Source of the DNA: Algoriphagus ratkowskyi
GTDB taxonomy: Bacteria > Bacteroidota > Bacteroidia > Cytophagales > Cyclobacteriaceae
NCBI RefSeq assembly: GCF_002150505.1
Contig: NZ_MSSV01000001.1
Location: 248,001-312,000 of the forward strand
Length of the DNA stretch: 64,000 nucleotides
Reading direction: 5' to 3'
The translations under genes were made by a program, and so were the position numbers. Below, in pieces: positions 6,283 to 55,187 of this stretch. Position 1 is the first letter of the stretch, and each line of letters opens with the position of its first letter. A model generated the notes under the pieces. The model was not told where the DNA came from and made no database searches. It was given only the letters and a program-made list of their open reading frames with translations.

Positions 6283-6372
6283 GACAATTGATTGTTCGAT
6301 TGAACTGCCTCCTGCTTTAGCTGGAGGACAATTGATTGTTCGATTGAATTGCCTCCTGCTTTAGCTGGAGGC
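6283..6372. repeat. 45-bp direct tandem duplication
   Basis: A 45-bp unit starting ACAATTGATTG and ending with the palindrome GCCTCC-tgctttagct-GGAGG occurs at 6283-6327 and again at 6328-6372 with about one mismatch. A third occurrence at 6773 begins the second copy of the larger 445-bp duplication. This suggests repeated slippage or unequal exchange around the palindrome. Confidence 0.7.
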
Positions 6373-7214
6373 GATGAAATGATTGGTATCCTTGCTGGGC
6401 TTTAGCCCAATTTTTCTTTGGCTAGAAATAATTTGAAGAATGGGCTAAAGCCCAATTCCTGTTGAATTGAAATCATCCTTTACAATGGGCTGAATGCAGT
6501 TTTTATAATCCTGCCCAATTCCTATTCCTTTGAATTTAATGCTTTAGCTGGAAGCAATGAATAGATTTAAATTTTATGGAATTTTAGCCCAAAAATTACT
6601 TTTTCCCGATGGTTCAATAAACTACCTTGAAAGTGCAAAACACTATTCTCATGAAAAAGCTATTTTCACTCTTCCTGCTTTTGTTTTCCTTTTCTGCTAT
6701 TCAAGCTCAGCAAAAACCTTGGATGCTAGGGCCCTTTCTTAGAGCCAAGGCCGCCAAACCAATCATTGAGTGACAATTGATTGTTCTATTGAATTGCCTC
6801 CTGCTTTAGCTGGAGGCCATGAAATGATTTGTATCCTTGCTGGGCTTTAGCCCAATTTTTCTTCGGTTAGAAATAATTTGAAGAATGGGCTAAAGCCCAA
6901 TTCCTGTTGAATTGAAATCATCCGTTACAATGGGCTGAATGCAGTTTTTATAATCCTGCCCAATTCCTATTCCTATGAATTTAATGCATTAGCTGGAAGC
7001 AATGAATAGATTTAAATTTTATGGAATTTTAGCCCTATTCCTACTTTTTCCCGATGGTTCAATAAACTACCTTGAAAGGGCAAAACACTATTCTCATGAA
7101 AAAGCTATTTTCACTCTTCCTGCTTTTATTTTCCTTTTATACTCTTCAAGCACAGCAAAAGTCTTGGATGCTAGGGCCTTTTCTTAGACCCGAGGCCGCC
7201 AAACCAATCATTGC
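6328..7214. repeat. 445-bp tandem duplication spanning GH130 upstream region and 5' coding end
   Basis: Copy 1 (6328-6769) and copy 2 (6773-7214) align with an offset of 445 bp. The two ATGs are at 6651 and 7096, with few substitutions and small indels. Each copy holds inverted repeats (GGGCTTTAGCCC and GGGCTAAAGCCC) upstream of the gene start, so the leader can form hairpins. The duplicated segment ends about 40 codons inside the GH130 reading frame, leaving a short minigene upstream of the intact gene. The region 6183-7095 holds no other gene I can support. Confidence 0.8.
6651..6773 (+). pseudogene. truncated copy of GH130 gene (signal-peptide minigene)
   Basis: From ATG 6651 the frame encodes 40 residues: a signal peptide (MKKLFSLFLLLFSF...QAQQ) and the first mature residues (PWMLGPFLRAKAAKPIIE), then TGA at 6771. 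It is nearly identical to the start of the intact GH130 gene at 7096 and arose by the 445-bp tandem duplication. If transcribed it would make an exported peptide. It is more likely a fossil, but its frame is intact up to the junction. Confidence 0.7.
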
Positions 7215-8299: not shown

Positions 8300-9470
8300 G
8301 ATCCTATTCAATTTGCAGGAGTATGGACCTCTGGCTAGGAGATAAATCATCCCTATGGGACTTTTAAGAAATAATGCTGCAAGCATGATTGATTATGTAG
8401 CCAGCCATTTCAATGGCTGGAAAAAGGTTGAACATCAGTTTCCGAAAATACATTGAGCATGACAGATAGTGGTTGACGAGATCTGATTTTAGTCATTGTT
8501 TAACTATGAAAAATTATCGTCCGTCCCGATGGGACTTTGTGAGACCTCTTTGTCATTCAACATCCAGAGGTTAAAACCTCTGGCTAGGAAATGAAGCGTC
8601 CCTATGGGACTATAAAGAAATAATACCGTAGTCATGCCAACTTAGTAGCCAGCCATATCAATGGCTGGAAAAAGGTTGAACATCAGTTTTCGAAAATGCT
8701 GTAGGCATGACTGATCTTGATTGACGAGATCTGATTTTAGTCATTGTTTATCTATGAAAAATTATCGTTTGTCCTGATGGGACTTTGTGAGACCACATAT
8801 ATAATTCAACATCCAGAAGTTAAGACCTCTGGCTAGGAAATGAAGCGTCCCTATGGGACTATAAAGAAATAATTCCGTAGTCATGCCAACTTAGTAGCCA
8901 GCCATATCAATGGCTGGAAAAAGGTTGAACATCAGTTTTCGAAAATGCTGTAGGCATGACTGATCTTGGTTGACGAGATCTGATTTTAGTCATTGTTTAT
9001 CTATGAAAAATTATCGTTTGTCCTGATGGGACTTTGTGAGACCACATATATAATTCATCATCCAGAGGTTAAAACCTCTGGCTAGGAGATAAATCGTCCC
9101 TATGGGACTGTAAAGTAAAATGCCGTAGGCATGACTGATTAGGTAGCCAGCCATATCAATGGCTGGAAAAAGGTTGAACATCAGTTTTCGAAAATGCTGT
9201 AGGCATGACTGATCTTGGTTGACGAGATCTGATTTTGGTCATTGTTAAACTATGAAAAATTATCGTCCATCCTGATGGGACTTTGTTAGACCACATTTAT
9301 AATTCATCATCCAAAGATTAAAACCTCTGGCTAGGAGATAAATCGTCCCTATGGGACTGTAAAGTAAAAATGCCGTAGGCATGACCGATTAGGTAGCCAG
9401 CCATTTCAATGGCTGGTGGAGAATATCAATTGAGAATTTAGCAGAATGCCGTAGGCATGACTGATTTTGT
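8300..9470. repeat. composite-palindrome tandem array A, left part
   Basis: Five units with a period of about 249 bp (landmark CCAGCCATTTCAATGGCTGG-type palindromes at 8401, 8649, 8898, 9147 and 9397). Each unit carries four different palindromes: CCAGAGGTTAAAACCTCTGG, GTCCCTATGGGAC, ATGCCGTAGGCAT and the CCAGCC one. The array stops about 35 bp before the transposase ATG with an end segment (9410-9466) that recurs at the right end of the array (10539-10595). No coding frame here is convincing. Confidence 0.85.
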
Positions 9471-9504
9471 TTAAATTAGTTCATGTATTTAAAATGAATG
9501 TCCT

Positions 9505-9966
9505 ATGCCAAATACCTATACAAAAATGTATTGCCAGGCTGTCTTTGCTGTCAAACACAGAAAAGCAGTTATTCAAGATGCCTTCAAAGGGGATCTTTAT
9601 GCAGTTATAGGGAATCTGGTTAACGAGACCGAAGCAAAGATTTTAATAGTTAATGGGCATTTTGACCATGTCCACTGCTTATTCCAGTTTTTTCCAAAAC
9701 AATCTGTTTCAGATATTATGAAAAATGCTAAAGCCAAATCTTCCAAGTGGATAAATGAATCTCAATTGCTTGAAAATAGATTTGAATGGCAATCAGCATT
9801 TGGAGCATTCACATATAGTGAAAAGGAAATACAAAAGGTTTTTGACTATGTGAAAAATCAAGAAATGCATCACCAAAAAATGACTTTTAGAGAAGAATAT
9901 CTCATGATGCTTAAGGCTCATGCTATTGATTTCTCTCCAGAATATCTCTTCAAAGAGTTGGAGTAG
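9505..9966 (+). mobile_element. single-domain IS200/Y1 (HUH) transposase, REP-associated type
   Basis: A 153-residue transposase of the IS200/RAYT-like superfamily. The HUH motif is H55-V-H57 in FDHVHCL, and the likely catalytic tyrosine is Y115 in FDYVKNQEMHH. Such enzymes nick single-stranded DNA at hairpins and form a 5'-phosphotyrosine bond. No TnpB is present. The gene is embedded in array A, with the same palindromic units on both sides, the arrangement expected of a REP/RAYT pair in which the enzyme acts on the neighbouring palindromes. The frame is intact and full length for the family (about 140-160 residues), so it may be active or domesticated. Confidence 0.88.
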
Positions 9967-10600
9967 AAATCGCCCGTCCCAATTGGGCTGTAAAGATATA
10001 ATGCCGTAGGCATGCCAACTTAGTAGCCAGCCATTTCAATGGCTGGAAAAAGGTTGAACATCAGTTTTCGAAAATATATTGAGCATGACAGATAGTGGTT
10101 GACGAGATCTGATTTTAGTCATTGTTTAACTATGAAAAATTATCGTCCGTCCCGATGGGACTTTGCGAGACCTCTTTGTAATTCAACATCCAGAGGTTAA
10201 AACCTCTGGCTAGGAAATGAATCGTCCCTAAGGGACTTTAAAGAAATAATGCTGCAAGCATGATTGATTATGTAGCCAGCCTTTTCAATGGCTGGAAAAA
10301 GGTTGAACATCAGTTTCCGAAATTACATTGAGCATGACTGATTTTGGTTGACGAGATCTGATTTTGGTCATTGTTAAACTATGAAAAATTATCGTCCGTC
10401 CTGATGGGACTGTGTTAGACCACATTTATAATTCATCATATAAAGGTTAAAACCTCAGGCTAGGAAATGAATCGTCCCTATGGGACTTTAAAGAAATAAT
10501 GCTGCAAGCAAGATTGATTATGAACCCAGCCATTTCAATGGCTGGTAGAGAATATCGATTGAGAGTTTAGCAGAATTCCGTAGTCATGGCTGATTAAAAA
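9967..10600. repeat. composite-palindrome tandem array A, right part
   Basis: Three more units of the same 249-bp family (palindrome landmarks at 10027, 10276 and 10526), in the same orientation as the left part. It ends with the terminal segment GGCTGGTAGAGAATATC..., which matches the segment ending the left half just upstream of the transposase. This edge symmetry suggests that the transposase gene with one unit end was duplicated or inserted as a block. Confidence 0.83.
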
Positions 10601-16313: not shown

Positions 16314-16372
16314 CGAAACTCAAACATTAAAACTTCAATCTCATTTATTTTTTATCGTGTACTTTTAGTATT

Positions 16373-28576: not shown

Positions 28577-29482
28577 ACCGATCGTGCCCTTGGCACTCTT
28601 GGTCTTTGTTTTCGATCTTACCCCGAATTTCGCTGCGCTGTATTCGGGGCTAATACGGGTTTTGCCTTTGGCAAAAGGGTAGTGCATAAGAAAATCCCTA
28701 ATGTCTGTTGTGTTTCTTTTTTAAGATAAGGCAGAGGAAACAAAGTATTAATTTGCTGCCTCATAAAAAAACTTGCTGTGATTACTGAACCCTTGCCAAA
28801 GGCAAGGCTAGTAAAAGCCCAGAATATAATTCTGGGTTTGAAACATATGTGATTTATTTATAGAGTGCCAAAGGCACGATCGGTGCTAAACAATGTTACA
28901 TCATCTATTTGGTTAACCTTTCCCCGAATTTCGCTGCGCTGTATTCGGGGCTGATACGGGTTTTGCCTTTGGCAAAAGGGTAGTGCATAAAAAAATCCCT
29001 AATGTGTGATGTGTTTCTTTTTTATGATAAGGCAGAGGAAACAAATTATAAATTTGCCGCCTCATAAAAAAACTTGCTCCGATTGCTGAACCCTTGCCAA
29101 GGGCTAGGCTGGTAAAAGCCTAGAATGTGATTTTGGGTTATGTTTCAGATTAAATTTTCGGAAAAAGGAAATACCGATCGTGCCCTTGGCACTCTCATAA
29201 TCTTTCTTGTTGATCTTACCCCGAATTTCGCTACGCTGTATTCGGGGCTGATACGGGTTTTGCCTTTGGCAAAAGGGTAGTGCATAAAAAAATCCCTAAT
29301 GTGTGATGTGTTTCTTTTTTATGATAAGGCAGAGGAAACAAATTATAAATTTGCCGCCTCATAAAAAAACTTGCTCCGATTGCTGAACCCTTGCCACGGC
29401 AAGGCTGGTAAAAGCCCAGAATATAATTCTGGGTATCGAAATCTAATCGATATATTTATAGAGTGCCAAAGGCACGATCGGT
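28577..29482. repeat. composite-palindrome array B, left part
   Basis: Units bounded by inverted 20-mers CGATCGTGCCCTTGGCACTC and GAGTGCCAAAGGCACGATCG. Each core contains CCCCGAATTTCGCTGCGC (copies at 28621, 28922 and 29219), CCTTTGGCAAAAGG and TTGCCAAAGGCAAG palindromes, and CCCAGAATATAATTCTGGG. The array stops about 26 bp before the transposase ATG. Confidence 0.85.
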
Positions 29483-29508
29483 ATTAAATATTTATAAGTA
29501 ATAGGACT

Positions 29509-29955
29509 ATGCCACAATCCCTTGCAAAAGTATATCTCCATGTTATTTTTTCAACAAAGGATAGAAAACCTTTTATTTCTCCAGAAACAAAACCAATCCT
29601 GCAGGCTTACATCATTGCTTTAGCTTCCGAACTTGGAATTTACACTCTAGAAATCTTCGCTAATCCAGATCATATACATTGGCTTTGTACTCTTCCAAGA
29701 ACACTGAGCATTGCCGACATGATTCAAAAGATTAAAATTCCCAGTTCAAATAAGATGGCTAGAATTGGTCCCAAGGAATTTCATTGGCAGAAAGGATACG
29801 CCGCTTATTCAGTAAGTCAATCAAAATTGGAAACAGTTAAAAAGTACATTCAAAACCAGGAAGAGCATCATCGTAAAATAACTTTTCAAGAGGAGTATAT
29901 TCAATTTTTGGAAGAATATGAAATCGAATATGATTTGAGATACGTCTGGGATTGA
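29509..29955 (+). mobile_element. second single-domain IS200/Y1 (HUH) transposase
   Basis: 148 residues. HUH motif H55-I-H57 in NPDHIHWLC and probable catalytic Y113 in VKKYIQNQEEHH. It is clearly related to, but well diverged from, the protein at 9505. It lies between two boundary inverted repeats of array B: the left boundary (ends 29482) and right boundary (starts 29976) face outward on each side. No TnpB is present. The coupling of a distinct repeat family to a distinct enzyme suggests an independent enzyme/substrate pair. Confidence 0.88.
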
Positions 29956-29975
29956 ATTATCGAAAGTCAGTAAAT

Positions 29976-32070
29976 ACCGATCGTGCCCTTGGCACTCTTG
30001 AAAGAGAGGATGCTAAACTCACCCCGAATTTCGCTGCGCTGTATTCGGGGCTGATACGGGTTTTGCCTTTGGCAAAAAGAGCTGTCGCGTCATTGCCGAA
30101 CCCTTGCCAACGGCAAGGTTGGTAAAAGCCCAGAATGCAATTCTGGGCTTGAAATATAGGAGATGTTTTTATAGAGTGCCAAAGGCTCGATCGGTGATAA
30201 ACAATCTCGTATGATCTATTTGGTAAACCTTACCCCGAATTTCGCTGCGCTGTATTCGGGGCTGATACGGGTTTTGCCTTTGGCAAAAAGAGCTGTCGCG
30301 TCATTGCCGAACCCTTGCCAACGGCAAGGTTGGTAAAAGCCCAGAATGCAATTCTGGGCTTGAAATATAGGAGATGTTTTTATAGAGTGCCAAAGGCACG
30401 ATCGGTACTAAACAATCTCGTATGATCTATTTGGTCAACATCACCCCGAATTTCGCTGCGCTGCATTCGGGGCTGATACGGGTTTTGCCTTTGGCAAAAT
30501 AGCTGTCGAATTATTGCCGATTCCTTGCCAAAGGCAAGGTTGGTAAAAGCCCAGAATACAATTCTGGGTTTAAAATAAATTAGAATTTTTTTGTAGAGTG
30601 CCAAAGGCACGATCGGTGATGAACATTTTTTTCTCATGAGTAAATCAAAATTTTCAACCTCTATAAATTGAATTGAAATATATATGGGATTGGATTATGG
30701 TAGAATTTAATACCGATCGTGCCCTTGGCACTCTTGTTCTATGATTTCGAATTTACCCCGAATTTCGCTGCGCTGTATTCGGGGCTGATACGGGTTTTGC
30801 CTTTGGCAAAATAGCTGTCGAATTATTGCTGAACCCTTGCCAAAGGCAAGCCTGGTAATAGCCCAGAATGTAATTCTGGGTTATGTTTCTGATTAAATTA
30901 TCGAAAAAAGGAAATACCAATCGTGCCCTTGGCACTCTCATAATCTTTCTTGTTGATCTTACCCCGAATTTCGCTTCGCTGCATTTGGGGCTGATACGGG
31001 TTTTGCCTTTGGCAAAAGGGTAGTCGAATTATTACTGAACCCTTGCCAAGGGAAAGGCCAGTAAAAGCCTAGAATGTGATTTTGGGTTATGTTTCTGATT
31101 AAATTTTCGGAAAAAGGAAATACCGATCGTGCCCTTGGCACTCGCATGATCTTTCTGGCTGATCTTACCCCGAATTTCGCTGCGCTGCATTCGGGGCTGA
31201 TACGGGTTTTGCCTTTGGCAAAAGGGCAGTCGAATTATTGCTGAACCCTTGCCAAGGGCAAGGCTAGTAAAAGCCCAGAATGGAATTCTGGGTTTGGAAC
31301 GTATGTGATTTATTTATAGAGTGCCAAAGGCACGATCGGTAATGAAAATTTTCATCCCATGAGTAAATCAAAATTTTCAACCTCTGCAAATTGAAATTCA
31401 TTACATATAGGTTCGGGATTGAATTATCGGGGTCAGGTAAATACCGATCGTGCCCTTGGCACTCTTGTTCTATGATTTCGAATTTACCCCGAATTTCGCT
31501 GCGCTGTATTCGGGGCTGATACGGGTTTTGCCTTTGGCAAAAGGGCAGTCGAATTATTGCTGAACCCTTGCCAAAGGCAAGCCTGGTAATAGCCCAGAAT
31601 GTAATTCTGGGTTATGTTTCTGATTAAATTATCGAAAAAAGGAAATACCAATCGTGCCCTTGGCACTCTCATAATCTTTCTTGTTGATCTTACCCCGAAT
31701 TTCGCTTCGCTGCATTCGGGGCTGATACGGGTTTTGCCTTTGGCAAAATGGCAGTCGAATTATTGCTGAACCCTTGCCAAGGGCAAGGCTGGTATAAGCC
31801 AAGGATGTGATTTTGGGTTATGTTTCTGATTAAATTTTCGGAAAAAGGAAATACCGATCGTGCCCTTGGCACTCTTCTTCTATGATTTTGATTTTACCCC
31901 GAATTTCGCTTCCCTGCATTCGGGGCTGATATGGGTTTTGCCTTTGGCAAAAGGGCAATCGAATTATTGCTGAACCCTTGCCAAAGGAAAGGCCAGTAAA
32001 AGCCCAGAATGTAATTCTGGGTTTTGAAACGTATGTGATTTATCTATAGAGTGCCAAAGGCACGATCGGT
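29976..32070. repeat. composite-palindrome array B, right part
   Basis: Nine more core copies (CCCCGAATTTCGCT at about 30021, 30233, 30442, 30755, 30961, 31167, 31487, 31692 and 31896). Some units are complete, with both inverted ends; others are half units. A larger block of three half units (30710-31340) recurs at 31440-32070, so multi-unit blocks have also been duplicated. The minus-strand frames starting MRVPRAR are translations of the repeat, not genes. Confidence 0.85.
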
Positions 32071-32144
32071 GCTAAATAATCTCAATAGAACAATATTATT
32101 ATTTATACTTACAGTACTATATAATACCTTTTCTTAAATTAATT

Positions 32145-32290
32145 TATGTATATCCGCTTTTCTACCAGTAAGACGTCAAAAGCAATGTAAGATATGTTAA
32201 ACTTAAGAATTGAGGCCACTTCAGTCTTAGGTCATCCAACCTGATAAGCAAAGAATCTAAGGTGACTGGCATCATTGCGGATAATCATAA
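32145..32290. mobile_element. MITE copy 2 (146 bp)
   Basis: Left end TATGTATATCCGCTTTTCTA followed by CCAGTA; right end TGACTGGCATCATTGCGG followed by ATAATCATA, its imperfect complement. The interior is shorter than in copy 1. It ends 10 bp from the stop codon of the DUF1206 gene, so it may shape that gene's 3' end. Confidence 0.75.
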
Positions 32291-32299
32291 TTAATAAAA

Positions 32300-33103
32300 C
32301 TATTCTATTTCGCTAATGTCTGAATGTCTCGCTACCATAAAACAAAATATGCCATAGCCCAGCATACCCAACGCTACTGCTCCCATCAAAAAATTCCCAT
32401 AGGGCAGACTAAGCAAATATTGTAAAGCGCCTTCCGTTCCCTGTAGTTCATCACTGTCATGAGCCAAAATAACTTTAATTAAAAAGAAGGAAATTACACC
32501 GAAAACTACTCCTCTTGCTATATACCCGTATTTTCCAGCTCGTTTTACCAGTTGGTATTCTTTATTGTTATCAGGATTTTCGTCTAACTTTTTCATGTGT
32601 TTTCCACTAAATCCTATATAGGCTTGCCAAATAGCATTTATTCCTGAGCCTATAGCAATTATCCAGATCACCCAAACTCCCCATTCCTTTTCGAGCAACA
32701 TGTTTAATGCTGCTTTTTTAGAATCATCTCCTGATGAACCTCCACTAGTAAAGAGAGGTTTAGCAAAGGAATAAGCAATGAATGCGTACAAAATTCCCGA
32801 ATAAGCGTATTTGATTCTAGAAGCAATTCTCTTTTTGCCTTCATCGCCGTTGGGGTCAACTGCAGCTTGATACAAACGCCATAAGCTATACGATAATAAG
32901 CCTAATGCAACAATGCTTGTAAGGATCACTCCACCAGGCAATTCTTGGAGGAAACGTACAATTCCAGATTTTCCTTTTATATCACCTCCTAAACCAAATG
33001 CGGCCATTGCAGCTAATATTCCGATCAAAGCATATACTAAACCTTTACTATAATAACCGAATTGTTTTACCTTTTTTACTTTGTCTTTCTTTGAGTTTTC
33101 CAT
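32300..33103 (-). CDS. DUF1206 membrane protein, paralogue 1
   Basis: 267 residues with about six membrane segments arranged as three pairs, the DUF1206 pattern. Each pair starts with a KxxGxxxxGLVYxxIG-like motif: FGYYSKGLVYALIGILAA, YAYSGILYAFIAYSFAKPLF, and KYGYIARGVVFGVISFFLI. The N-terminus is very basic. Function is unknown; it probably acts in the inner membrane. A close paralogue lies 294 bp upstream in the same orientation. Confidence 0.8.
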   Translation of the reverse strand: MENSKKDKVKKVKQFGYYSKGLVYALIGILAAMAAFGLGGDIKGKSGIVRFLQELPGGVILTSIVALGLLSYSLWRLYQAAVDPNGDEGKKRIASRIKYAYSGILYAFIAYSFAKPLFTSGGSSGDDSKKAALNMLLEKEWGVWVIWIIAIGSGINAIWQAYIGFSGKHMKKLDENPDNNKEYQLVKRAGKYGYIARGVVFGVISFFLIKVILAHDSDELQGTEGALQYLLSLPYGNFLMGAVALGMLGYGIFCFMVARHSDISEIE

Positions 33104-33299
33104 ATGCTAAAGCTGCTGCAAGGTTGATTATATTTATGATCCAAGGGTGCATGTGTTGTGCCAAATAAACTAGAGAGCAATTTAATTTGAGCCTCGTTCA
33201 TCTAATCTTATATATTGGGATTTCAATTTAGCTATTTAAAGTTAAGGCTGTTTGCTCAAGACTAACTGCTTATTTGTTCCTTCTCGAGGTGATCTTGAC

Positions 33300-33352
33300 T
33301 CCGCCATTGCGAGGAACAGTCTGTCCCGACATGTCGGGGAAGCAATCTCATT
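33300..33352. repeat. short intergenic palindromic repeat (CATTGCGAGG type)
   Basis: CATTGCGAGGAACAG, a hairpin TGTCCCGACATGTCGGGG, then AAGCAATCTC. A related, longer and inverted copy lies at about 40085-40196. Small repeats of this kind are widespread in bacterial intergenic regions; no function is assigned. Confidence 0.45.
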
Positions 33353-33397
33353 GATAATTCCTAATTCCTTAAAATACCTTTTCTTAAATTGATAAGG

Positions 33398-34201
33398 CTA
33401 CTCCATTCCGCTAATAGCAGAATGTCGGGCAACCATAATACAAAAGATGCCAAAACCTAGCATTCCCAAGGCCACTGCTCCCATAAGAAAACTGCCATAG
33501 GGCAAACTCAATAAATAATGAAAAGCACCCTCTGTGTCTTTCAGAGCATTGGCATTATGAGCCAAGCTAACCAATACTAAAAAATATGAAATAACTCCAA
33601 AAACTACTCCTCTTGCCATATAGCCATATCTTCCGCTGCGTTTCACCAATTTGTACTCATTTTTGGTATTAGGGTTTTCATCTATCTGAATCATAAACTT
33701 GCCACTAATTCCCAGATATACCTGCCAAATAGCATTCCCGGCCATACCTATGGCAAAAATCCACATCACCCAGATTCCCCAATCCTTTTCCAACAGTATA
33801 CTTAATGCAGCTTTTTGAGACTCACCTTCCGATGAAACTACAGAACTGAAAAGTGGTTTGGCAAACGAATAGGCTATGGCTCCATAAAAAAATCCTGAAT
33901 AAGCGAATTGAATTCTTGGCCCAATTCGAGTTTTGCCTTCTTCGCCGTGGGGATCAACTGCGGCTTCATAAAAGCGCCATAGGCCATGTGCTAATAATCC
34001 TAAAGCTACAATTGCTGTAAGAACTATACCACCAGGCAAGTCATGAAGAAATTGGGCAATACCAGCTTTACCTTTAATATCTCCTCCCAAGCCAAAGGCA
34101 ACTAGTGCAGCTAATATACCAATCAGGGAATACACCAAGCCTTTACTGTAGAAGCCGAATTGCTTCACCTTTTTTATTTTTTCTTTTTTTGATTTTTCCA
34201 T
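33398..34201 (-). CDS. DUF1206 membrane protein, paralogue 2
   Basis: 267 residues, the same length as paralogue 1 and similar throughout (FGFYSKGLVYSLIGILAA, FAYSGFFYGAIAYSFAKPLF, RYGYMARGVVFGVISYFLV). The central loop differs (SSVVSSEGESQKAA against SGGSSGDDSKKAA). The two are tandem duplicates, probably old, since nucleotide identity is moderate. The gap between them contains the CATTGCGAGG repeat and may hold a separate promoter. Confidence 0.8.
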   Translation of the reverse strand: MEKSKKEKIKKVKQFGFYSKGLVYSLIGILAALVAFGLGGDIKGKAGIAQFLHDLPGGIVLTAIVALGLLAHGLWRFYEAAVDPHGEEGKTRIGPRIQFAYSGFFYGAIAYSFAKPLFSSVVSSEGESQKAALSILLEKDWGIWVMWIFAIGMAGNAIWQVYLGISGKFMIQIDENPNTKNEYKLVKRSGRYGYMARGVVFGVISYFLVLVSLAHNANALKDTEGAFHYLLSLPYGSFLMGAVALGMLGFGIFCIMVARHSAISGME

Positions 34202-53894: not shown

Positions 53895-55187
53895 AAAAAG
53901 TTCAACCCCTTCAGGGTTACCATGTCCAAAATGGGTTTAACTGTTCCACGGGTTTCACCCGTGGCTATTGAAAGGTTCGACCACTTTGTGGTCATTTTAA
54001 TAAAATCATTTTTCGGTGAACACCATTCTAATTGTGCTATTTCCAATTGATGATCCTGAAAGGATCGAACCATGAATAGCCATGTGTGAAACCCATGGTT
54101 TGAAAATCAATCAAAAGATTGGACGACCCCGAAGGGTGTCGAACACAAATAATTTTCAACTCTATGGTGGGAAATTAACATTTGAAGCAGTCCGAAGATA
54201 GCATAATCCTGGAGTCCAAATCTGAAGACTTGAGCCATAAAGGGAATTAAATCCCAATTTGTGGCCTCTGCGTTAACCTCAGTGTTCCCCGCTGTTTAAT
54301 CCTTTTTTATTTTTAGCTATTTGTAATTCTTTTCAAAAAAGTTCAACCCCTTCAGGGTTGCCATGTCCAAAATGGGTTTAATTGTTCCACGCGTTTCACC
54401 CGTGTCTATTGAAAGGTTCGACCACTTTGTGGTCATTTTAACAAAATCATTTTTCGGTGACCACCATTCTCATTATGCTATTTCCAATTGATGATCCTGA
54501 AAGGATCGAACCATGAATAGCCGTGGGTGAAACCCATGGTTTGAAGATCAACCAAAAGATTGGACGACCCCGAAGGGCGTCGAACACAAATAATTTTAAC
54601 TCACCCTATAATGTGAAATTAACATTGGAAGCAGTCCGAAGATAGCATTGTCCTGAGTCCAAATCTAAAGACATGAGCCATACAGGGAATTAAATCCCAA
54701 TTTGTTGCCTCTGCGTAAACCTCCGTGTTCAAAGCAGTTTAATCTTTTTTTATTTTTAGGGATTTGTAATCCTTTTCAAAAAAGTTCAACCCTTCAGGGT
54801 TGCCATGTCCAAAATGGGTTTAACTGTTCCACGGGTTTCACCCGTGGCTATTGAAAAGTTCGACCACTTTGTGGTCTTTTTAACAAAATCATTTTTCGGT
54901 GAACACCATTCTAATTGTGCTATTTCCAATTGATGATCCTGAAAGGATCGAACCATGAATAGCCATGTGTGAAACCCATGGTTTGAAGATCAACCAAAAG
55001 ATTGGACGACCCCGAAGGGCGTCGAATACAAATAATTTTCAATTCATTCTATGGTGGGAAATTAACATTGGAAGCAGTCCGAAGATAGCATTGTCCTGAG
55101 TCCAAATTTAAAGACTTGAGCCATACAGGGAGTTAAATCTCAATTTGTGGCCTCTGCGTAAACCCCTGTGTTCCCCGCGGTTTAATC
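53895..55187. repeat. composite-palindrome tandem array C (three units)
   Basis: Three direct units of about 442 bp (GTTCAACCCCTTCAGGGTT-type starts at 53900, 54341 and 54784). Each unit holds many different palindromes: AACCCCTTCAGGGTT, CCACGGGTTTCACCCGTGG, GACCACTTTGTGGTC, and CGACCCCGAAGGGCGTCG. The structural style is the same as arrays A and B, but the sequence is unrelated and no transposase lies in or next to it. No real gene: the minus-strand frame at 53876-54073 is translated repeat. Confidence 0.83.

Follow-up and report, generated by a model that had tools for sequence, protein, structure and literature searches.

Structure of the hairpin array

We analyzed a stretch of 64,000 nucleotides of the Algoriphagus ratkowskyi genome (assembly GCF_002150505.1, contig NZ_MSSV01000001.1, positions 248,001 to 312,000 of the forward strand; hereafter the window, whose first letter is position 1), in which the gene of a small transposase of the HUH/Y1 type (enzyme B) is embedded in an array of hairpin repeats (array B). 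The array contains twelve cores, the number given in the initial annotation: hairpin A (CCCCGAAT...ATTCGGGG) occurs 12 times between 28621 and 31925, always on the + strand, and is directly followed by hairpin B (TTTTGCC...GGCAAAA) in 12/12 cases. A terminal sequence of 22 nt, ACCGATCGTGCCCTTGGCACTC, was found in 16 copies with up to 3 mismatches (nine on the + and seven on the - strand) between 28577 and 32070, and in none with the same tolerance in the rest of the window; the ends are inverted, as first described, but are 22-mers and not 20-mers.

The full unit is ordered LE-A-B-spacer-C-D-RE. Four of these elements (LE, B, C, and RE) are of type P1, a short hairpin whose core is TGCC-NNN-GGCA, and two (A and D) are of type P2, a longer hairpin of the form CCCxGAAT...ATTCxGGG; about 10 nt separate A from B and C from D. 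Each unit is made of two inverted halves, both P1-P2-P1. Only five of the twelve cores are surrounded by inverted ends as the initial annotation had it (units 1, 3, 4, 9, and 12, with a + end before and a - end after), while the ends next to the remaining seven are like-oriented or outward. The enzyme B gene sits between an RE and an LE, with three cores upstream and nine downstream. Duplication of a whole block of units, also proposed at the outset, was confirmed with 597 of 631 aligned bases identical (94.6%). The features are the following:

28577..32070, no strand assigned, array B with 12 hairpin A/B cores and 16 end copies
28577..28884, + strand, unit 1, first half LE (P1, +) 28577-28598, A (P2) 28621-28649, and B (P1, +) 28654-28676, then an AT-rich spacer; second half C (P1, -) 28790-28807, D (P2) 28814-28836, and RE (P1, -) 28863-28884
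28922..29137, + strand, unit 2, A-B-C-D, with the RE at 28863 before it and the LE at 29173 after it
29173..29482, + strand, unit 3, LE to RE, the RE ending 26 bp ahead of the enzyme B gene
29509..29955, + strand, enzyme B, HUH/Y1 transposase TnpA_Y1 of 148 amino acids, with H55, H57, W93-Q94, Y113, Q117, and H120-H121
29976..30195, + strand, unit 4, LE to RE, the LE starting 20 bp past the enzyme B gene
30233..30406, + strand, unit 5, A-B-C-D-RE (30226-30436 against 30015-30225, 205/211 bases identical)
30444..30617, + strand, unit 6, A-B-C-D-RE
30709..31341, + strand, three-unit block, second copy at 31440-32071
30712..30880, + strand, unit 7, LE-A-B-C-D, the C-D half being a sub-threshold match to Rfam family RF01687 on the - strand (30836-30880)
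30916..31086, + strand, unit 8, LE-A-B-C-D
31122..31340, + strand, unit 9, LE-A-B-C-D-RE
31443..31611, + strand, unit 10, LE-A-B-C-D, the C-D half being a sub-threshold RF01687 match on the - strand (31567-31611)
31647..31817, + strand, unit 11, LE-A-B-C-D
31853..32070, + strand, unit 12, LE-A-B-C-D-RE

Enzyme B and its paralogues

Quentin et al. 2018 (PMC6006769) describe a TnpA_Y1 subclass 1.2 of 148 amino acids with the motifs DH[IV]H, WQ, and YIKNQKEHH, for which repetitive extragenic palindromes (REPs) are given as "no" and which is generally devoid of IS200-type secondary structures. Judging by its sequence, enzyme B carries this signature (Y---Q--HH, DH[IV]H, WQ, ca. 148 amino acids), with DHIH at 54-57 plus HWQ, and is also alike in occurring as few diverse copies per genome and in Bacteroidetes. 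Its Y motif has Q where class 2 enzymes (RAYT/TnpA_REP) have NP. Among 24 aligned homologues, H55, W93-Q94, Y113, Q117, H120, and H121 were invariant and H57 was present in 23, while the first D of DHIH was absent from some. The protein matched Pfam Y1_Tnp (E 2.5e-23; PF01797, 82.9 bits against a threshold of 23) and passed the NCBIfam IS200/IS605 model NF033573 (65.4 against 55 bits), but failed the class 2 model REP_Tyr_transpos (30.1 against 80 bits), with which all ten proteins submitted scored below 80 bits or gave no match. The PDB structures closest to its AlphaFold model (pLDDT 89, pTM 0.82) were the TnpA proteins of ISDra2 and IS608 (E from 2.3e-9), many of them solved with hairpin DNA, followed by the REP transposase 4er8 (1.8e-5). 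Enzymes of the B clade are under strong purifying selection, with a ratio of nonsynonymous to synonymous substitution rates (dN/dS) of 0.03 to 0.15 (median 0.07), computed for those pairs (30 of 120) in which dS was unsaturated.

The genome has nine such genes: those of enzymes A and B in the window, a copy at C1:422677 that is 78% identical to B, a tandem pair on contig C8 (near-identical in appearance in the alignment), and one each on C18, C14, C51, and C3. The other eight are 32 to 78% identical to enzyme B, and eight of the nine were scanned, all passing the Y1_Tnp or the IS200/IS605 threshold. Orthologues are present in named Algoriphagus species. No tnpB was found beside tnpA among the neighbours scanned by Pfam.

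Hairpins beside relatives of the enzyme

When the flanks of the nine genes and their relatives were read, hairpins were seen, often on both sides and inverted, and their sequences vary with the enzyme clade: B has GTGCC-GGCAC, the C8 clade has GCCCTTTCAGGGC (in six Algoriphagus genomes and Chryseobacterium), and elsewhere there are GTCCCTACGGGAC and others. The enzyme is flanked by palindromes and the palindromes form inverted pairs, as in REPINs and REPtrons. Since each enzyme clade retains hairpins of its own sequence, a single genome can accommodate several such pairs.

For counts we used a set of 95 loci (excluding L004, L016-L019, L032-L033, L062-L064, and L141-L143, the last three being the places of L024, L020, and L027), reduced to 90 by removing four duplicates and the near-identical orthologue L081; L030 and L146 are one place and were both kept, and for partial genes the flank was counted from the edge of the match. 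A hairpin match between the two sides was found in 46/90 loci, against 12 +- 3 (maximum 20 in 50 swaps) when flanks were swapped among loci. When only the P2-linker-P1 geometry was considered, irrespective of sequence, 40 of the 90 loci had a module in one or both of their 200-bp flanks, and 79 of 84 modules had linkers of 9 to 13 nt. The co-divergence of enzyme and hairpin suggested by the initial annotation is partly supported: the clade-specific hairpins and the two-sided matches indicate that enzyme and hairpin family go together, and the correlation between enzyme and hairpin distances was weak (rho 0.23, n = 60; none of 2,000 permutations as high, the highest being 0.22) and not monotonic, the closest enzyme pairs having a mean hairpin distance of 0.37 vs 0.29 in the next band. 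For this Mantel test, 60 of the 90 loci were retained, namely, those in which the similarity of the best hairpin pair reached 60%, and the automatic choice sometimes picked P2 instead of P1.

The module and Rfam family RF01687

An Rfam scan of twelve loci gave seven above-threshold matches to RF01687 (Acido-Lenti-1 RNA) within ca. 500 bp of the Desulfonema magnum enzyme. The RF01687 consensus has an 8-bp hairpin, a 12-nt linker beginning with CUA (CTA in DNA), a 5-bp hairpin with a 3-nt loop, and a final U, an anatomy like that of our module, and canonical copies of the two-hairpin module (P2, a linker of ca. 9 to 14 nt, P1) are RF01687. In the genome of the window, a copy on C38 exceeded the threshold of 37 bits (42.5 bits), with lower scores for array A (28.1) and the C8 family (30.0); the Gemmataceae locus scored 29.5. 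Array B is divergent and sub-threshold, with a longer loop in hairpin A and linkers CTGATACGGG or CTnTTACCAG. A consensus of the B clade from 22 modules, CCCAGAATTGnATTCTGGG-CTnTTACAGGnC-GTGCCTTTGGCACT, bridges array B and RF01687.

The family was described by Weinberg et al. 2010 (PMC2864571) from Acidobacteria and Lentisphaerae as "probably" RNA and not cis-regulatory. Multiple copies in Vibrio anguillarum were listed in 2023 (PMC10059132), and a 2026 paper (PMC13298647) guessed at a regulatory role. Our search of open PubMed Central papers turned up no link between RF01687 and a transposase, nor between subclass 1.2 and repeats. In D. magnum, RF01687 modules were seen repeated in tandem at L242 (G072:C1:1989500-1999500), in tens of copies with a period of ca. 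68 bp.

Association of module and enzyme across phyla

A covariance model (R1) was built from 18 RF01687 matches that were picked by the Rfam model and had no enzyme within 1.5 kb, namely, those of 31 enzyme-free RF01687 loci that were over threshold and came from outside the genomes of the 29-locus Bacteroidota test. Neither this test nor that of Planctomycetota had a genome in common with the training set. In Bacteroidota, we compared 29 enzyme loci (99 kb in total) with 20 controls, mostly coding stretches that were no longer than 20 kb (387 kb altogether) and were taken from the same contigs as 20 of the loci. At E<=1, 60 of the 61 matches fell in enzyme loci (14/29 loci vs 1/20 controls hit), and at E<=0.01 the figures were 9/29 and 1/20. 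By geometry alone, modules reached 0.27 per kb in the 29 loci (11 hit) vs 0.005 per kb in the 20 controls (2 hit). Once the downstream flank was reverse-complemented, the upstream flank resembled it at z>=4 in 17/29 Bacteroidota loci, compared to 3/120 control windows, which were mostly coding.

In Planctomycetota, the phylum of the Gemmataceae genome, R1 matched 27 of 29 enzyme loci at E<=0.01, 18 loci with a match on both sides. Of the matches, 49 were no more than 150 bp from the gene; P1 pointed outward in 44 of them, and 24 of these 44 lay at 44 to 64 bp. A mixed set gave matches at 37/59 loci of the enzyme's subclass at E<=0.01, a figure that is not independent for G000, G070, G072, and G074, which contributed training rows. 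More distant Y1 transposases, from Cyanobacteria, Bacilli, staphylococci, and others, had no match at any of 18 loci even at E<=1.

The same tendency was found at the level of whole genomes. Among 149 Planctomycetota genomes, 33 had both enzyme and RF01687, seven RF01687 only, two the enzyme only, and 107 neither (p = 7.6e-24, which, like the other co-occurrence p values, ignores the kinship of genomes); that is, RF01687 was detected in 33/35 genomes with the enzyme vs 7/114 others, and in 30/30 when the enzyme match had E<=1e-40. Among 247 Bacteroidota genomes, the enzyme was present in 19 of 22 with over-threshold RF01687 vs 95/225 others (p = 5.9e-5), and with RF01687 at E<=1e-3, in 36/49 vs 78/198 (p = 1.6e-5). 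These searches scored just 23 (Bacteroidota) or 38 (Planctomycetota) RF01687 candidates per genome, so that misses are likely and absence means not found. None of fourteen well-known control genomes gave RF01687. An enzyme was located within 1.5 kb of 11 of 57 RF01687 loci (8/39 plus 3/18), when by a rough estimate ca. 0.1 would be expected.

Three arrays in the window

In the 64-kb window, all 31 R1 matches at E<=0.05 belonged to three arrays, with 15 in array B, 11 in array A, and five in a third one at 53.9 to 55.0 kb; one of the 18 training rows came from another contig of this genome. The other two arrays and the second enzyme are as follows:

8306..10600, no strand assigned, array A, units of ca. 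249 bp with P2-linker-P1 modules, 11 R1 matches at 8564-10487
9505..9966, + strand, enzyme A, homologue of 153 amino acids with the same motifs
53895..55187, no strand assigned, third array, three tandem units of ca. 442 bp with P2-linker-P1 modules (CCACGGGTTTCACCCGTGG-CTATTGAAAGGTTC-GACCACTTTGTGGTC), five R1 matches

Enzymes A and B were rightly taken as homologous (31% identical). Their repeats had been called unrelated in sequence, and indeed blastn of array A against array B (word size 7) gave no match longer than 14 bp and they have no alignable sequence, but both follow the P2-linker-P1 grammar and match one covariance model. The occurrence of two such pairs within 20 kb, which had been read as a signal, is real but not remarkable, since the genome has nine such genes. 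The hairpins of REPINs and REPtrons have a GT[AG]G tag at their 5' foot. At this place, by eye and with no background scoring, we noticed GTAG before P2 in array A, mostly TAG or CAG in RF01687 copies, and TCAG, AAAG, or ATAG in array B, so that some form of GTAG may serve as the tag here.

Enzyme and repeat in the genus Algoriphagus

Presence of the enzyme and of its repeat was linked among relatives, as the initial annotation had anticipated, but not in an obligatory manner. The exact B end was found in 16 of 19 genomes with a B-clade enzyme vs 10 of 53 without (p = 7e-7), and, among genomes at least 90% complete, in 16/19 vs 10/33 (p = 2e-4). The B-clade set of 19 genomes was fixed after a gap between 57% and 44% identity had been seen; two of the genes counted in it are partial and another is split in two. 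Genomes lacking the B enzyme can have many exact ends (31 in G042, 21 in G056, and eight in G069), in G042 and G056 partly as dispersed elements of ca. 230 bp with inverted ends. The nearest enzyme in these three genomes belongs to the C8 clade, with C8 hairpins. Such ends fit units that outlived their enzyme or the action of another enzyme. In G042 (L091-L106), several dispersed B units share up to ca. 585 bp, which is beyond the unit length, and some may thus have spread within a larger repeat.

A probable enzyme-and-substrate locus

The presence of the same hairpin pair beside the enzyme's relatives in several phyla suggests that it is the DNA substrate of these enzymes. We consider that array B is probably an enzyme-and-substrate locus of the REPtron kind, based on a TnpA_Y1 enzyme of subclass 1.2, in which the hairpins would be processed as single-stranded DNA (ssDNA) and the units thereby spread and multiplied. 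The TnpA of IS608 and ISDra2, as well as TnpA_REP, bind hairpins in ssDNA, cut beside them, and rejoin the ends, and REP transposases are thought to spread and multiply REPINs. By analogy, in array B the strand bearing the hairpins would become single-stranded, for example, as lagging-strand template, and the enzyme would bind P1 and perhaps also P2. Tyr113 would then cut beside the hairpin and the ends would be rejoined, which would allow units to be excised, moved to other places, or linked head to tail. The inverted half-units might let a dimer hold both ends; excised units joined to each other would give head-to-tail arrays and, if re-inserted, dispersed copies.

Several observations weigh against an enzyme-and-substrate locus. 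The best RF01687 score of array B is only 23.9 bits vs the threshold of 37, and none of the nine enzyme genes is located at the third array. Fifteen of the 29 Bacteroidota enzyme loci had no R1 match at E<=1. By geometry alone, modules on both sides were found in just 11/90 loci (mean 0.4 and maximum 1 with shuffled flanks), compared to 40/90 for one side, and the orientation was weaker (outward in 55/84, p = 0.006). RF01687 occurred without the enzyme in 3/22 (over threshold) or 13/49 (E<=1e-3) Bacteroidota and in 7/40 Planctomycetota genomes; among the ten such genomes formed by the three over-threshold Bacteroidota and the seven Planctomycetota, any Y1 protein was detected in six and none was found in four. 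The D. magnum RF01687 arrays at 1.99 Mb and 0.166 Mb have no adjoining enzyme (none in the 10 kb of L242), and ten of the 53 Algoriphagus genomes without the B enzyme have exact B ends. The empty site of one G042 unit, when compared with G038, G010, G014, and G056, was not clean, the intergenic region differing beyond the unit, and the flanks are too different to define the insertion ends. What the data show is the anatomy, the association across phyla, the location next to the gene, the paired changes in the stems, the fold and catalytic residues of the enzyme, and its purifying selection; binding, cutting, the strand used, mobility, and the enzyme's role in spreading the units are what we infer.

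The modules could instead be genuine small RNAs (Acido-Lenti-1), with the enzyme a mere neighbour, a regulator, or regulated. The classification by Weinberg et al. 2010 (PMC2864571) speaks for this, as do the regulatory role suspected in PMC13298647, the multiple copies listed for V. anguillarum (PMC10059132), and the covariation of the stems: double changes affect 11 of 13 pairs in 18 RF01687 copies (as high in none of 500 shuffles) and 6 of 13 pairs in 19 distinct B-clade modules, although these matches had been picked beforehand by a structure model that favours paired cells, which also tempers the support that these counts give to a DNA hairpin. However, modules lie on both strands and as inverted pairs around the gene, are repeated in tandem by the tens, and, from genome to genome, go along with a DNA-cutting enzyme. 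G-U pairs are nearly absent, with 1/216 paired cells in the RF01687 copies and 3/238 in the B clade (counts without an internal RNA control). A DNA hairpin is favoured by the scarcity of G-U as well as by the inversion of modules and their tandem arrangement, and we find small RNAs an unlikely explanation. We see as evenly balanced the wider claim that Acido-Lenti-1 would be, instead of an RNA, the ssDNA substrate of TnpA_Y1 subclass 1.2, a set of hairpin-specific enzymes spanning phyla, with nine or ten pairs per genome that would not cross-react and could serve as natural orthogonal ssDNA editors.

Two further alternatives were weighed. Enzyme B might be an ordinary insertion sequence of the IS200/IS605 type that prefers pre-existing palindromes, like ISPpu9, which is located in REPs of Pseudomonas putida. 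This would agree with the NCBIfam threshold passed by the protein and with the repeats present away from any enzyme, but insertion into a palindrome would leave its halves in direct register, whereas here the gene has whole modules on either side in inverted orientation, in many cases about equally far away. Besides, the hairpin sequence follows the enzyme clade, and the other eight genes of the genome are far from near-identical to B, so that we regard this as improbable. No better are the chances that the enzyme made the units once and that the arrays now grow by replication slippage and recombination, with the repeats as inert relics. Whole-block duplication at high identity, repeats that persist without the enzyme, and arrays without an adjoining enzyme are what such relics would produce, and yet the B enzyme is under strong purifying selection with its catalytic residues intact, and hairpin pairing has been kept through double changes.

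Comparison with known systems

Like TnpA_REP/RAYT with their REPINs (REPtrons, class 2), array B combines a low-copy HUH/Y1 enzyme flanked by palindromes with dispersed inverted palindrome pairs and repeat families tied to enzymes. It differs in the enzyme, with Y---Q--HH instead of Y--NP and a score under the REP_Tyr_transpos threshold, and in the repeat, a two-hairpin module with a conserved linker. The TnpA of IS200/IS605 (IS608, ISDra2; subclass 1.1) are alike in fold and HUH/Y motifs. The end hairpins of IS608 have a same-strand arrangement. Instead of the multiple near-identical copies with tnpB of such elements, we found diverse copies, inverted end hairpins, and no TnpB among the scanned neighbours. 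As for subclass 1.2 itself, reported as repeat-free in PMC6006769, we found modules next to many of its members, and its range extends to Planctomycetota and Desulfonema.

Di Nocera et al. 2013 (PMC3733652) described TIRYT tyrosine transposases flanked by inverted repeats, some of them double palindromic; Quentin et al. placed 20/26 of them, that is, most, in subclass 2.1 (PMC6006769). The CGTC-tagged palindromes are said in PMC3733652 to be without a transposase. The P1 of array A also begins with CGTC, but those REPs have stems of 8 to 9 bp and mostly a CCA tail, compared to a 5-bp stem in P1 here, a comparison made by description only.

With this locus, a candidate substrate can be put forward for an enzyme subclass that was described as lacking one, and an identity can be proposed for the orphan Rfam family RF01687, still listed as a small RNA and used by authors to guess at gene regulation. 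The many related enzyme-hairpin pairs could be used to study the joint change of HUH transposases and hairpins.

Other candidates and neighbouring features

An integron-like attC array was dropped as the identity of array B because there are no cassettes between the units, and CRISPR because the units are not repeats plus spacers. Besides the two Acido-Lenti-1 matches, array B gave Rfam matches to microRNA models that were far below threshold and were therefore taken as chance. The neighbours of array B scanned by Pfam were an S15 peptidase gene and two adjacent DUF1206 genes, the latter immediately past the array (32300-34201). A repeat of ca. 82 bp beginning with TGTATATCCGC was seen at 16372, 32145, and 48260, the other copies being 72 to 79% alike to that at 32145.

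A direct duplication of 445 bp at 6327-7071 contains GGGCTAAAGCCC palindromes, the type also seen on the flanks of the C3 enzyme gene (L008). Between 14567 and 25158, a two-hairpin element with a different sequence (GGAATTACAAATTCC, ca. 12 nt, AAGCGTAGTTACAAACTACGCTT) is present six times, in some cases imperfectly, among RhuM, Fic, Eco57I-type restriction-modification, and AbiTii-SEFIR genes, a region that resembles a defence island.

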